A stretch of 32,374 bases of DNA from Patescibacteria group bacterium (lineage in GTDB: Bacteria > Patescibacteriota > Microgenomatia > Woykebacterales > RBG-16-39-9b): contig JACZRW010000006.1 of NCBI GenBank assembly GCA_022574495.1, positions 1 to 32,374 on the forward strand. Reading direction: 5' to 3'. This document shows positions 11,208 through 16,715 of the stretch, one piece after another. Position numbers and translations under genes: made by a program. Below the pieces are notes generated by a model that was not told where the DNA came from, made no database searches, and worked only from the letters and a program-made list of their open reading frames with translations. Each line of letters starts with the position of its first letter. Positions within the stretch are counted from its first letter, which is position 1.

Positions 11208-11332
11208 TACTGTAATAATTTCTATCCACACAACGTTACTAAATTGATAGGTAAAGATCCGGACTTGACACCACTACGTCCTTGAAGTGTGGACTTCGAG
11301 GTGTCAAAACCCCGTAGCTTTAGCAATGGGGG

Positions 11333-11361
11333 TTGACAAATTGGGTTTTCTTTCGGATAAT
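11333..11361 (+). promoter_or_regulatory. Sigma70-type promoter
   Basis: TTGACA (11333-11338), 17 bp spacer, GATAAT (11356-11361). Confidence 0.65.
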
Positions 11362-11418
11362 ATGGCCTGTCATTATTACTGCCTGCTGTTTCATACCAGC
11401 AGGTATTTTATTAATAAA

Positions 11419-12003
11419 ATGGTTGAATATCTTACTACTATCGGAGATAAAACCTTAAACATTAGCCGAAAGTCACTAGGATTTTCAGCTTTTATGAAGA
11501 GATTCAGGCTTCCAATTCTTATTATCCTCACTATTACAATCCTTGTTTTCCTGGCAGTGTGGGCCCAATCTGGCATTAGCCAAAAACCCACTGCAAAAAT
11601 AAATCAATCCTTTTCCACTCAAGCTAGAACAGAAGATAAAATAAGAGTAAGAGATGCGGATCTTTTGGTAACAATAAATGGTGCTGATATAGATAACTCA
11701 CTCTTAATTCAAGGAAAGAGAGCCAGAACCAGAGAGGGTAAAACTTTCCTTATTATAAATATGGAGGTCGAAAATGAATTCCAAGTACCGCTTTATATTT
11801 TCCCGGTGGATCTGCTGCGTCTAGTAAGAGAGGACGGCAAAAAAATAGCACCTAGTGTTCACCAGGGAACAGTAGAAATAAGACCAATTTCAACGAAAAA
11901 AAGCAATGTTGGTTTTGTAATAGACCCAGATGAAAAAAATTTCAAGTTAGAAATCGGAGAGCTCTCTGGAGAAAAACAACTATTAGAGATATCATTTAAA
12001 TAG
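11419..12003 (+). CDS. Membrane-anchored extracytoplasmic protein, DUF4352-like beta domain
   Basis: ORF opens at 11287 but the promoter lies inside that extension, so ATG 11419 is preferred; single N-terminal TM, then GKTFLIINMEVEN...PLYIF...VGFVIDPDEKNFKLEI. Confidence 0.55.
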   Translation: MVEYLTTIGDKTLNISRKSLGFSAFMKRFRLPILIILTITILVFLAVWAQSGISQKPTAKINQSFSTQARTEDKIRVRDADLLVTINGADIDNSLLIQGKRARTREGKTFLIINMEVENEFQVPLYIFPVDLLRLVREDGKKIAPSVHQGTVEIRPISTKKSNVGFVIDPDEKNFKLEIGELSGEKQLLEISFK

Positions 12004-12252: not shown

Positions 12253-12282
12253 TTGACAATGGAATTTGCAGCGACTTATAAT
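12253..12282 (+). promoter_or_regulatory. Strong sigma70-type promoter upstream of the repeat-protein operon
   Basis: TTGACA (12253-12258), 18 bp spacer, TATAAT (12277-12282). Confidence 0.7.
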
Positions 12283-12288
12283 TGTAAC

Positions 12289-12452
12289 TAGAGTAATATA
12301 CTCTTCAGAGACATTGCTTTAAACAAATTAGTAACTTGCCCAAATACTGTTCCTAAATAGACACGACAAAGAGCCTACCTCCTGCCAAATGGGCTCTCAG
12401 CCGACCGCAAACGGAGGCAGCTCTTCAAAATTTTGAAGCGCTGCCTTTTTTT
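12289..12452 (+). ncRNA. Candidate structured leader / attenuator or independent small RNA
   Basis: Starts at the expected TSS with hairpin AGAGTA-ATA-TACTCT; then AGAGCC...GGCTCT, CCG-CAAA-CGG, and a terminal terminator. Confidence 0.45.
12415..12452 (+). terminator. Intrinsic terminator inside the leader of the repeat-protein operon
   Basis: AGGCAGCtcTTCAAAATTTTGAAgcGCTGCCT near-perfect palindrome plus TTTTTTT. Confidence 0.85.
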
Positions 12453-12513
12453 GGTGCAAAATTTTGCAATAATTATTAATGGTGCACAACTACACTCGAG
12501 AGGGGGTGAGCAA

Positions 12514-13614
12514 ATGAACAAACAAAAATTACTTTATGGTGCAGCTAGCGGTTTTGCCGCTTTGGCATTTTCGCTAACTCCTGTACTAGCTGCAGAAGCT
12601 ACCAATTCTAACACCGGTGCAAACTCTGACAACGACGCTAAGATAGATATCGATAATGACGTTACAATATCACAGGAAAATTTTCTCGATGTTAACAACG
12701 ATATTAGTGTAAACATTAACACTGGGGGTAACACCGCTGATAAAAACACTGGTGATGGTAGTGTCAGTACTGGTGATGGTGACGCAACAGTTAGCATTTC
12801 CAACCTAGGAAATAGTAACTCTGCTTCTATCAACATGTCCGGAAGCGTTGATGCTTCCGCAAGCAATGACACCACTGGTTTCAAATCTGACAACGATGCT
12901 ACGGTAAAAGTCGAAAATGACTTTGACCTAACCCAGAAAAACATAGCTAAGGTCAATAACTACGTGGACATTGATGTTGACACTGGTGATAACAGTGCAG
13001 ACAAGAACACAGGTGACGGAAGCGTAAAAACTGGAGATGGAGACGTAGAAGTCTCTATCGAAAACATGCTTAACGAAAACGACGCTGAAGTAGATCTAGG
13101 CAGTATTGGTGAGGCTTCGGCTTCTAATGATAATACTGGTGCTAAGTCTGACAACGACGCTATAGTAAAGATCAATAATGATGTTGATATTTTACAAGGA
13201 AACAATCTCTCCGTGAAAAATCACGTAGATGTTGACGTTGACACTGGTAATAACAGTGCCGACAAGAACACCGGTGATGGTGATGTCGATACTGGTGACA
13301 GTGACGTAGACGTTGAAATCTCCAACAAAGGCAACAGCAATGACGTTGATGTTGAAGGTGGAGACGATATAGACGCTGACGTGTCAAATGACACCACTGG
13401 TTTCAAGTCTGACAACAACGCTAAGGTAGAAGTCGATAATGACTTGGATGTAACTCAAAAGAATAAGACTCACATCCATAACGATGGCGACATTGACGTT
13501 GACACAGGTGATAACAGTGCCGACAAGAACACCGGTGATGGTGATGTCGATACAGGTGATGGTGATGTTGATATTGACGTAGAAACAGATGTCAATTCTA
13601 ACAACCTCGACTAA
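12514..13614 (+). CDS. Exported repeat protein, four 87-aa units; no C-terminal anchor seen
   Basis: ATG 12514 behind AGGGGGTGA; signal peptide MNKQKLLYGAASGFAALAFSLTPVLAAEA; unit starts at 12610, 12871, 13132, 13393 (exact 261 bp spacing). Confidence 0.85.
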   Translation: MNKQKLLYGAASGFAALAFSLTPVLAAEATNSNTGANSDNDAKIDIDNDVTISQENFLDVNNDISVNINTGGNTADKNTGDGSVSTGDGDATVSISNLGNSNSASINMSGSVDASASNDTTGFKSDNDATVKVENDFDLTQKNIAKVNNYVDIDVDTGDNSADKNTGDGSVKTGDGDVEVSIENMLNENDAEVDLGSIGEASASNDNTGAKSDNDAIVKINNDVDILQGNNLSVKNHVDVDVDTGNNSADKNTGDGDVDTGDSDVDVEISNKGNSNDVDVEGGDDIDADVSNDTTGFKSDNNAKVEVDNDLDVTQKNKTHIHNDGDIDVDTGDNSADKNTGDGDVDTGDGDVDIDVETDVNSNNLD

Positions 13615-13773: not shown

Positions 13774-15903
13774 ATGAATAGCCTTATAATTGTAATGACA
13801 GCAGTGGTAATTGCTTTTTCACCGGTAATTGCCCTATCTTCCCCGGCTCACGCAGTACCAGATTTACCAAGTACTCCGGATTCTCCAGACTCACTAGATT
13901 CTCCAGATGAACCGGAAAGCCCAAAGACTCCAAAGTTACCAGGGGAAGACGAACCAGTCATTCAAAATGATCAGACTAGCACTGAAACTGATACTAATGA
14001 AGGCCAGGTAGAGGAGGAGAATAATAATGAGTCCCAACCAGATTCAAGCAATAATGATCAGCCCAGCACTGAAACTACTAGCACTGATTCAAACAATGAT
14101 ACAAAAATTCAAGGTAATGTTGGTACCACCACAGAAGATTATACAAAACCTGATACTCAAGAGACTTCTATAGACAACCTAGAATCAGTTGGTGGTTATA
14201 ATAACAATGAGGTGAGTCTTGCCGATTTAGCCGCTGGGAATTCAAACACTGGGGCAGATTCAGATAATAATGCCAGACCAGAAATAAACAACGACTTTGA
14301 CTTAACCGCTACAAATAATCTTAACGCAGATAATACTGCGTATGTAAACGTAGATAGCGGGAAGAATTCGGCTGATAAAAATACCGGAGACGGAGAAGTA
14401 GTTGCCGGCGATGCCGACATTGTACTCACAGCTCTAAATGTCGGTAATAATACTGGCGTCGGCACCCAAGTTTTCAATGTTTATGATGATCAAACCGGTG
14501 ACTTAATTATAGATTTTGATAATGTTTCCTCCCTACCGCTAGGGACTGTATGCGGCGATGGAAGTGCCACAAATACTACCACCGGTTCAGACTCAAATAA
14601 TGATGCCACTACTGTATGTACTACCCAAAATACAATACTAATAGATAATAATGGAAATATAATAAATGACTACTATTTAAGTGCTGACACCGGTAATAAT
14701 AGTGCGGATAAAAATACCGGGGACGGATCGGTAACCACTGGAGATGTCAATATTGTCTTGAACGTAATAAACTTTATTAATAATACTTTTCTCGGCGGCG
14801 GTGGGGAATTATTACTTGGCTTGGTAAACATTTTTGGAAACTTTGATGGCAATATTGGCCTGAATATCCCTAACTCAGGAGACGACTACCTTCTAACCTC
14901 TAGTAGTGCCGGAAATTCTAACACTGGAGCAGATTCAGATAATAATGCCAGCACTTCATCAAGTAGTGATACTGACATAGCTATGACAAACACAGCGGAT
15001 ATTTTAAATAATATCATGCTCTTTGGCGATACTGGAAATAACGACGCGTCCAAAAACACCGGGAGTGGGTTGGTAACTACTGGAGATATTAATTCAAACC
15101 TAAACGTAACTAACATCAGTAACACGAATGGGATTGGTGATGGTGGGACCATTTGGATGGTATTGGTTAACAACTTAGGTAATTGGACCGGACAGATTTG
15201 GGGATTTGATAGTACTGGAGTTGCATCACCATTTTTCGCTTTTGAAATAGGGGAGGACGGTGCGTTTAATGCGATTACCGGCGCTGGTTCTACCAATAAC
15301 GCCACGGTTACAAATAATAACGATACCGATATAACCATGAATAATAATGCCAAGCTAACCAACAATATTTATATAAACGCCAATACTGGAAATAACAGCG
15401 CCACCATGAATACTGGAAATGGAACTATAAGTACCGGGGATGTAAATGTTGCCGCCAATATAGTTAATATATTGAATAATAATTTCCTGGCCAGCAAATT
15501 TGTGCTAACCATTGTAAATGTCTTTGGGAGTTGGACCGGTAACATATTACCTTTCGGCTGGGGAGGATCTGATTCAGATGTTATTGCGGATGAAAGCTCT
15601 TCTATTTCTCTTGAAGCAAATGGTGTTTCGAGTAATCAAGTAGGATATACACCATCTGTAAATGTTCTTGGTGTAACTTCAAGTAATAATTTCAATTCAG
15701 ATAGTAATTCAGACAAAGAGGAGGAGAGGGAGATTGCCACTCTGCTAACAAAATCGGAGGGAGGTGCTAAGATAAATTCTGTCACAAAAGTGATCGGAAA
15801 GGATGCTGGATCTATTTACGATTATTGGTGGGTAATAATACCATTACTAGTTGCCACCACTTCTGCCCTATACAGAAGGAGGTTTTTATGGAAAAAGCAC
15901 TGA
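13774..15903 (+). CDS. Exported repeat protein, four divergent units, C-terminal TM anchor
   Basis: Signal peptide MNSLIIVMTAVVIAFSPVIALSSPAHA (ORF extends to TTG 13705); Pro/Ser/Asp/Glu-rich linker; four units with the 56-aa core; C-term WWVIIPLLVATTSALYRRRFLWKKH. Confidence 0.85.
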   Translation: MNSLIIVMTAVVIAFSPVIALSSPAHAVPDLPSTPDSPDSLDSPDEPESPKTPKLPGEDEPVIQNDQTSTETDTNEGQVEEENNNESQPDSSNNDQPSTETTSTDSNNDTKIQGNVGTTTEDYTKPDTQETSIDNLESVGGYNNNEVSLADLAAGNSNTGADSDNNARPEINNDFDLTATNNLNADNTAYVNVDSGKNSADKNTGDGEVVAGDADIVLTALNVGNNTGVGTQVFNVYDDQTGDLIIDFDNVSSLPLGTVCGDGSATNTTTGSDSNNDATTVCTTQNTILIDNNGNIINDYYLSADTGNNSADKNTGDGSVTTGDVNIVLNVINFINNTFLGGGGELLLGLVNIFGNFDGNIGLNIPNSGDDYLLTSSSAGNSNTGADSDNNASTSSSSDTDIAMTNTADILNNIMLFGDTGNNDASKNTGSGLVTTGDINSNLNVTNISNTNGIGDGGTIWMVLVNNLGNWTGQIWGFDSTGVASPFFAFEIGEDGAFNAITGAGSTNNATVTNNNDTDITMNNNAKLTNNIYINANTGNNSATMNTGNGTISTGDVNVAANIVNILNNNFLASKFVLTIVNVFGSWTGNILPFGWGGSDSDVIADESSSISLEANGVSSNQVGYTPSVNVLGVTSSNNFNSDSNSDKEEEREIATLLTKSEGGAKINSVTKVIGKDAGSIYDYWWVIIPLLVATTSALYRRRFLWKKH

Positions 15904-16715
15904 AAAATACAACGGTAAAAATTATAACAGCTGTTTTGTTTTTTGGAGTAGCCATGCTACTAGCTTCGTCTACATTTGCTGCTGAAGCGAGTAATTCAAA
16001 CACAGGAGCAGATTCTGACAATGACGCTAGCGTGAACATTGGAAATAATGTCACTATCGAACAAAATAATGATGCCAATATAAACAATATTATTCATGTC
16101 AATGCAAACACTGGCGGAAACTCTGCTAGCAAAAACACTGGGGATGGCTCGGTAAACACCGGAGATATAAACGGAAGCATTAATATCTTCAATAGTGTAA
16201 ATGGAAATGGTCTAAACAGTCTTGGTTTCGATTGTGACGGACTATGTGCAGTCGATTTAGACATCTCTGTATCCAATACTAATACCGGAGCAGATTCTGA
16301 TAACGAAGCCAGTGTCAACGTGGAAAATGACTTTGATATCACTCAAAACAATAACTTGAATATCGATAATAAAGTCAAAGCCAATCTGGATACTGGAAAT
16401 AACGACGCAGATAAGAATACCGGCGATGGTTCGGTAAACACCGGGGATATCAATTTTGATATCAATATAACCAATGAAGGCAATGAAAATAACATTGGAG
16501 GCCCAGTGGATGAAGACGATCCAAGCGAACCAGCTAAGAAAGAGCAGGATGCAATACTTCCAGAAGAAGGAAAAGTACTTGCAGCTGCTGAAGGCCTACC
16601 GGTAACCGGTGGAACTCTACCAATAATGCCAATTATGGCTATTATTCTGGCTGGTTTGGCAATGAGGAAAGTTGAAGAAACGCTTAGATTAAGATTTCTC
16701 CCAGAGAAAAAATAA
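15888..16715 (+). CDS. Exported repeat protein, two units, LPXTG-type C-terminal signal
   Basis: ATG 15888 preceded by AGAAGGAGG; signal peptide ending STFAAEA; two 56-aa cores; C-term LPVTGGTLPIMPIMAIILAGLAMRK...; overlaps the gene 2 stop by 16 nt. Confidence 0.85.
   Translation: MEKALKNTTVKIITAVLFFGVAMLLASSTFAAEASNSNTGADSDNDASVNIGNNVTIEQNNDANINNIIHVNANTGGNSASKNTGDGSVNTGDINGSINIFNSVNGNGLNSLGFDCDGLCAVDLDISVSNTNTGADSDNEASVNVENDFDITQNNNLNIDNKVKANLDTGNNDADKNTGDGSVNTGDINFDINITNEGNENNIGGPVDEDDPSEPAKKEQDAILPEEGKVLAAAEGLPVTGGTLPIMPIMAIILAGLAMRKVEETLRLRFLPEKK

Follow-up and report, generated by a model that had tools for sequence, protein, structure and literature searches.

The window considered here, meaning the whole 32,374-nucleotide stretch of DNA that was analysed, is contig 15 of a 0.94-Mb genome assembly (G000) from a class that we term Microgenomatia. 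The nearest named relatives that carry the gene described below, gene A, are two assemblies of Candidatus Woykebacteria, which we take to be candidate phyla bacteria of the group Microgenomates. At this locus gene A is followed on the same strand by two further genes, B and C, that carry the same repeats, and it is preceded by a leader region. The features are arranged as follows.

12253 to 12282, forward strand: sigma-70-like promoter upstream of the hairpin, TTGACA-18-TATAAT, 12/12 as a consensus match only
12398 to 12420, forward strand: leader RNA hairpin recognised by covariation, comprising stem P1, a GA/A internal loop, stem P2 (CCG/CGG) and a CAAA tetraloop
12413 to 12452, forward strand: intrinsic-terminator-like stem, identified by folding and followed by T7
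12502 to 12509, forward strand: ribosome-binding site GGGGGTGA, seen in the sequence 5' of the ATG at 12514
12514 to 13614, forward strand: gene A, a secreted four-unit repeat protein of 366 aa (mature pI about 4.05)
12514 to 12591, forward strand: Sec-type signal peptide MNKQKLLYGAASGFAALAFSLTPVLA, assigned by eye from the sequence
12610 to 12870, forward strand: unit 1, odd type (NTGA)
12871 to 13131, forward strand: unit 2, even type (TTGFKSDN...TQKN)
13132 to 13392, forward strand: unit 3, odd type (NTGA)
13393 to 13611, forward strand: unit 4, even type (TTGFKSDN, TQKN), truncated at 73 aa
13774 to 15903, forward strand: gene B, with a Pro-rich N-terminus and several repeat units with hydrophobic inserts
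15888 to 16715, forward strand: gene C, with two repeat units and a C-terminal sorting signal
16596 to 16610, forward strand: LPVTG sortase motif of gene C, followed by a transmembrane segment and a basic tail

A first-pass annotation of this DNA had described four unit starts, at 12610, 12871, 13132 and 13393, each exactly 261 bp (87 aa) apart, with units 1 and 3 beginning NTGA and units 2 and 4 beginning TTGFKSDN and sharing TQKN. Both observations hold, and all four units lie in the single frame that runs from the ATG at 12514 to the stop at 13614. The repeats do lie within the interval of 12610 to 13614 that had been given for them, but the gene begins some 100 bp earlier and the fourth unit is incomplete. 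Compared with itself, the protein is 56.5% identical at a lag of 87 residues and 59.6% at a lag of 174, the highest self-identity at any lag in a shuffle control (n=1000) being 24.7%. Pairwise identities over the available length are 64% for units 2 and 4, 60% for 2 and 3, 59% for 3 and 4, 56% for 1 and 3, 52% for 1 and 2 and 47% for 1 and 4. The DNA copies of the units are too diverged for Tandem Repeats Finder, which therefore did not report the gene A array. The protein contains no cysteine, and a search for a sorting signal in it found none, the C-terminus reading ...VNSNNLD.

Homologs of gene A occur in 24 of 94 relatives at a strict cut-off and, by profile, in 19 genomes of a 241-genome phylum sample, other classes included; no relatives of the repeat protein were found on viral contigs. 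The four-unit orthologs of other genera of the family are 51-60% identical and have genes B and C adjoining. Exact 87/87/87 spacing is special to Woykebacteria, the spacing elsewhere being typically 88/89-91/88. By eye, two homologs appear to have about five (L042) and about six (L038) units, so the unit number is not fixed at four. An insert in unit 4 flanked by a second cysteine pair is present in five loci (L040, L041, L054, L055 and L056), and in most distant relatives the protein finishes with a hydrophobic LLGL-type tail, conserved among them and absent from the Woykebacteria. The repeat is a real four-unit secreted surface protein of uncultivated Microgenomates, and it is ancient.

The alternation of odd and even units extends well beyond the motifs at their starts. 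Within the window, five informative sites favour the split that places units 1 and 3 opposite units 2 and 4 (13/24), one favours 12/34 and none favours 14/23, and the 13/24 split has a column bootstrap of 0.93. A quartet test on 19 homologous four-unit proteins returns 13/24 as the best split in 15 of them, with informative sites in the ratio 72:34:21. Leave-one-out profiles, built with the unit ends removed, assign 60 of 76 units to the correct parity class and place odd above even in all 19 proteins, a signal that is partly due to the terminal unit 4, the most different unit. When the 16 units of four family members are placed in one tree, the even units of three genera make up one of the two groups that a branch separates (91/96), and units 2 and 4 of the window are joined at 84/91; no branch of this tree is starred and the odd units do not form a clade. 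The expectation that a unit phylogeny would group 1 with 3 and 2 with 4 is therefore borne out for the even units, while units 1 and 3 group in a way that is not exclusive of units from other genomes. In the larger tree of 76 units, those of distant lineages mostly cluster by position, and the four positions are therefore old.

The placement of cysteines gives a second view of the same pattern. At least two cysteines follow unit 1 in 34 of 51 distinct four-unit homologs and unit 3 likewise in 34 of 51, and none of the 51 has at least two after unit 2 or unit 4. These homologs are related, so the counts are not independent, but the absence behind even units extends over many families. The pairs behind odd units take the forms CC, CGC or CxxC. 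Like the window's own protein, the two nearest Woykebacteria relatives and some other lineages, such as those of the TTGPFSNN type, lack cysteines at the odd-unit ends. In most relatives a cysteine pair closes the odd unit but not the even one, so that two units together, rather than a single one, make up the structural repeat. Cysteine placement, leave-one-out profiles, quartets and trees together lend strong support to the earlier suggestion that odd and even units have distinct roles.

In most copies of a two-unit paralog of about 195 aa the first unit is followed by cysteines and the second is not, as if the paralog were a free-standing odd-even block. On profiles its first unit is more odd-like than its second in 10 of 13 cases with the ends included and in 8 of 13 with the ends trimmed, and this drop means that the odd-plus-even reading of the paralog rests mainly on the cysteines; by profile, it was rejected as a clean odd-even pair. 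This secreted paralog is present in ten of the loci inspected (L074, L075, L081, L083, L092, L125, L151, L153, L159 and L162), often behind the same leader.

The alternation had also been taken to imply duplication of a two-unit block. By itself it does not imply a duplication in this lineage: the odd units form no clade, the split crosses genera and third codon positions lack the preference. We consider it highly improbable that a two-unit block was recently duplicated in tandem in this lineage and that the alternation is a functionally meaningless trace of it. Such an event would account for 13/24 being the window's best split and for the pairing of units 2 and 4 within genomes, but third codon positions of the window units show no preference for 13/24 (75:70:70), and where all four units have the same residue 13/24 is the worst of the three splits (33:37:37). 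Against it also stand the grouping of the even units of three genera and the parity pattern in 15 of 19 homologs spanning the class. A recent block duplication is thus rejected on the third codon positions together with the occurrence of the pattern in several genera. From the flat third-codon signal it follows that the alternation is old or is maintained at the protein level. The 13/24 split is common to several genera, so any block duplication would be ancient; judged from the sequences compared, it is older than those genera.

Profile searches of gene A against Pfam, NCBIfam and the PDB returned nothing credible. The best of five AlphaFold models is all-beta and of moderate quality (pLDDT 72, pTM 0.59), the other four remaining below 50, and a deeper alignment of two units gave a pLDDT of 41. 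A Foldseek search returned no match below E 0.1; its top matches, none of them significant, are mostly solenoid or beta-helix proteins. The unit profile has a strong lag-2 alternation, which fits the pattern expected of beta strands. A sub-repeat of 16-17 aa was considered and discarded, as only lag 2 stands out and longer lags remain within the shuffle level. At best, the modelled fold of gene A may be described as all-beta and solenoid-like.

The composition of the protein raises two other readings. With 80 D+E against 18 K+R and a pI of 4.05, mature gene A protein is strongly acidic, as would befit a calcium-binding acidic repeat (RTX or type-III-like) in which acidity rather than parity is the key feature. 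We regard this as very unlikely: there is no Pfam match to RTX or dockerin repeats, and two homologs with the same four-unit plan (L059 and L060) contain visibly few Asp/Glu and many Asn/Ser/Thr residues, so that acidity is lineage-specific. Unlikely too, though less so, is a curli-like functional amyloid in which gene A encodes the subunit and B or C the nucleator. Asn/Gln-rich beta repeats with QxN and NxA motifs, the presence of CsgA and FapC among the non-significant Foldseek matches and the paralogous anchored partners in the cassette would all suit an amyloid of this kind. Yet Pfam scans of gene A and 12 homologs yield no curlin match, the one NCBIfam hit (CsgH) is sub-threshold at E 0.07, no structural match is significant, and the unit is 87 residues long rather than about 22, with no significant sub-period.

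The neighbours of gene A bear on a role at the cell surface. Gene B, for which an earlier start at GTG 13729 is possible, ends in a transmembrane segment plus basic tail. Gene C, which shares its first 16 bp with the end of gene B, encodes a signal peptide in addition to its sorting signal, and the window's genome contains two matches to the sortase family PF04203 over the Pfam cut-off. Relatives keep the A-B-C order, and their copies of gene C have LPxTG-like motifs in the corresponding position. On the other side of the cassette, a DUF4352 protein is encoded on the same strand at 11287-12003, and in most relatives co-directional ORFs of similar size lie upstream of gene A.

Between that upstream gene and gene A lies a leader with two overlapping structures. 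In many loci the sequence AGCYGACCGCAAACGGAGGC lies upstream of gene A, with a second stem and then a T-run behind it. Across 38 distinct leader sequences the first structure consists of a 5-bp P1, a GA/A internal loop, an invariant 3-bp P2 and a CNAA-type loop; in the window P1 has 3 contiguous bp where the family has 5, and a covariance model (R1) matches the window at 12394-12425 with E 9.5e-7. Hairpin cells are paired in 94.1% of cases, against 82.5% when shuffled and at most 46% when slid, the 5' side of P1 having been left out of the search pattern. Double-changed cells number 41 against 16.9 in shuffled alignments and the covariation score is 0.375 against 0.168 (sd 0.017); because the P2 stem is invariant, this covariation rests on the three variable P1 pairs. 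The 5' arm of the terminator overlaps the 3' arm of the hairpin, and the two structures are therefore mutually exclusive. The same overlap is found in 54 of the 60 instances that bear a T-run (67 instances in total), and the terminator is the stronger fold, with -21.6 kcal/mol against -8.2 for the hairpin in the window and medians of -24 and -8 kcal/mol across instances. Promoter-like sites precede 6 of 18 other leaders where 2.8 are expected, slightly above chance. In four loci of distant relatives (L049, L050, L052 and L019) what looks like another element, AAGTGC and then a hairpin, lies between the terminator and the ribosome-binding site.

The search pattern occurs once in the window's genome, and its reversed control once in 89 genomes. 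The covariance model finds the leader in 56 of 233 genomes of Microgenomatia and, at E 1e-4, in no other class of the 241-genome phylum sample. Among the 94 relatives the leader is present in 20 of the 24 with gene A and in 6 of the 70 without (Fisher p 1.3e-11), the genomes with gene A and no leader being G001, G029, G050 and G067. Forty further leader matches mostly have gene A or a two-unit homolog downstream, with signal peptide and ribosome-binding site. The leader also lies 5' of UDP-glucose/GDP-mannose dehydrogenases in four genomes, and of a PIG-L deacetylase, a family 2 glycosyltransferase and a camelysin-like protein; taken together, these targets suggest a surface-coat programme. 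Camelysin/TasA-like proteins stand behind the hairpin in L077 (1371-2153; Peptidase_M73) and L079. In G000 itself the only other match is a weaker one on contig 63 (8318-8349; L123), which has its own overlapping terminator and lies about 100 nt 5' of a UDP-glucose/GDP-mannose dehydrogenase.

A simpler account would make the hairpin and T-run merely the transcription terminator of the upstream gene, kept by common descent. Position by itself is compatible with this, as most leaders lie 3' of a co-directional gene (in 40 of 46 instances the upstream ORF runs in the same direction). However, termination has no need of a GA/A internal loop, a CNAA-type loop or a covarying P1, and five instances have a divergent gene upstream. 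The 12/12 promoter match of the window sits between the upstream gene and the hairpin, G000 has the motif at two places only, and unrelated surface genes are preceded by the same element. We judge a plain terminator to be quite unlikely.

Known regulators of comparable design were also sought. No Rfam covariance model matches the leader at its gathering score except for chance miRNA models. A BglG/LicT-type partner was rejected, since CAT_RBD has no match in G000 and the control search was positive in four genomes. A NusG paralog as trans factor was likewise set aside, as no genome of 89, with or without the leader, has more than one PF02357 match.

Our preferred reading, which we hold with moderate confidence, is that the product of gene A is secreted and wall-linked and serves as a coat or fibre protein built from odd-even pairs, and that it is made as part of an A-B-C cassette controlled by an RNA attenuator. 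The protein would be beta-rich and would consist of two odd-even pairs of units of about 87 residues, with the terminal cysteine pair of the odd unit potentially cross-linkable in most relatives. Within the cassette, A would be soluble, B anchored to the membrane at its C-terminus and C attached through its LPXTG sortase signal, so that A may assemble on or beside the anchored B and C into a cell-surface coat or fibre. It is secretion, the repeats and the anchored partners that point to such a role. Transcription would start at the promoter, some 110 bp ahead of the leader, and the transcript could then fold into either the small hairpin or the stronger terminator. A putative factor acting in trans would stabilise the hairpin, block the terminator and allow the cassette to be made; if it were missing, the terminator would form and transcription would stop. 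The leader hairpin thus probably decides whether the surface-coat genes are transcribed.

On a wider scale, we see about an even chance that the hairpin represents a new class of small antiterminator or riboswitch-like element, confined to Microgenomatia in our sample, that coordinates a surface-matrix regulon through a ligand or protein. The proposed regulon, which shares this even standing with the hairpin class, would include the odd-even coat proteins and their anchored partners, nucleotide-sugar dehydrogenases, a glycosyltransferase, a de-N-acetylase and camelysin-like genes.

For the most part, candidate phyla bacteria have yet to be cultivated, and attachment to other cells is their presumed way of life, which makes how they build and regulate their surface an open question. 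At this locus a surface-protein cassette of conserved make-up and defined odd-even architecture comes together with a candidate regulatory RNA, which ties the cassette to polysaccharide-type genes. This RNA can be tested in ordinary laboratory hosts, so that culture of the organism is unnecessary.

Surface repeat proteins and attenuators are known kinds of system; the repeat family and the hairpin are new with respect to the libraries searched. Open-access titles and abstracts on surface proteins of candidate phyla and on regulatory RNA mention neither, and an earlier description in the fuller literature is possible. The RAT hairpins of BglG/LicT are small 5' leader elements that share sequence with an intrinsic terminator, their 3' arm overlapping its 5' arm. 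The leader hairpin shares this overlap, but it differs in sequence and loops, and the window's genome is without a CAT_RBD protein. Processive antitermination by the EAR element, LoaP or RfaH is tied to surface, matrix or polysaccharide genes, and the antitermination proposed here is likewise linked to surface genes; in contrast, our leader is without an Rfam match and the genomes that bear it are without a second NusG. With curli CsgA/CsgB, gene A has in common secreted Asn/Gln-rich beta repeats and clustered paralogous partners, whereas it has no curlin profile match, its 87-aa units are paired as odd and even, and its partners have LPXTG and transmembrane anchors. To our knowledge, its lineage is regarded as lacking an outer membrane. 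The cassette's anchoring has a parallel in the LPXTG sortase-anchored surface proteins of monoderm bacteria. While gene A is anchorless and its repeats fall outside the catalogued families, gene C is organised like those proteins, with signal peptide, repeats, LPVTG motif, transmembrane segment and basic tail, and the two sortases of the window's genome extend the likeness.
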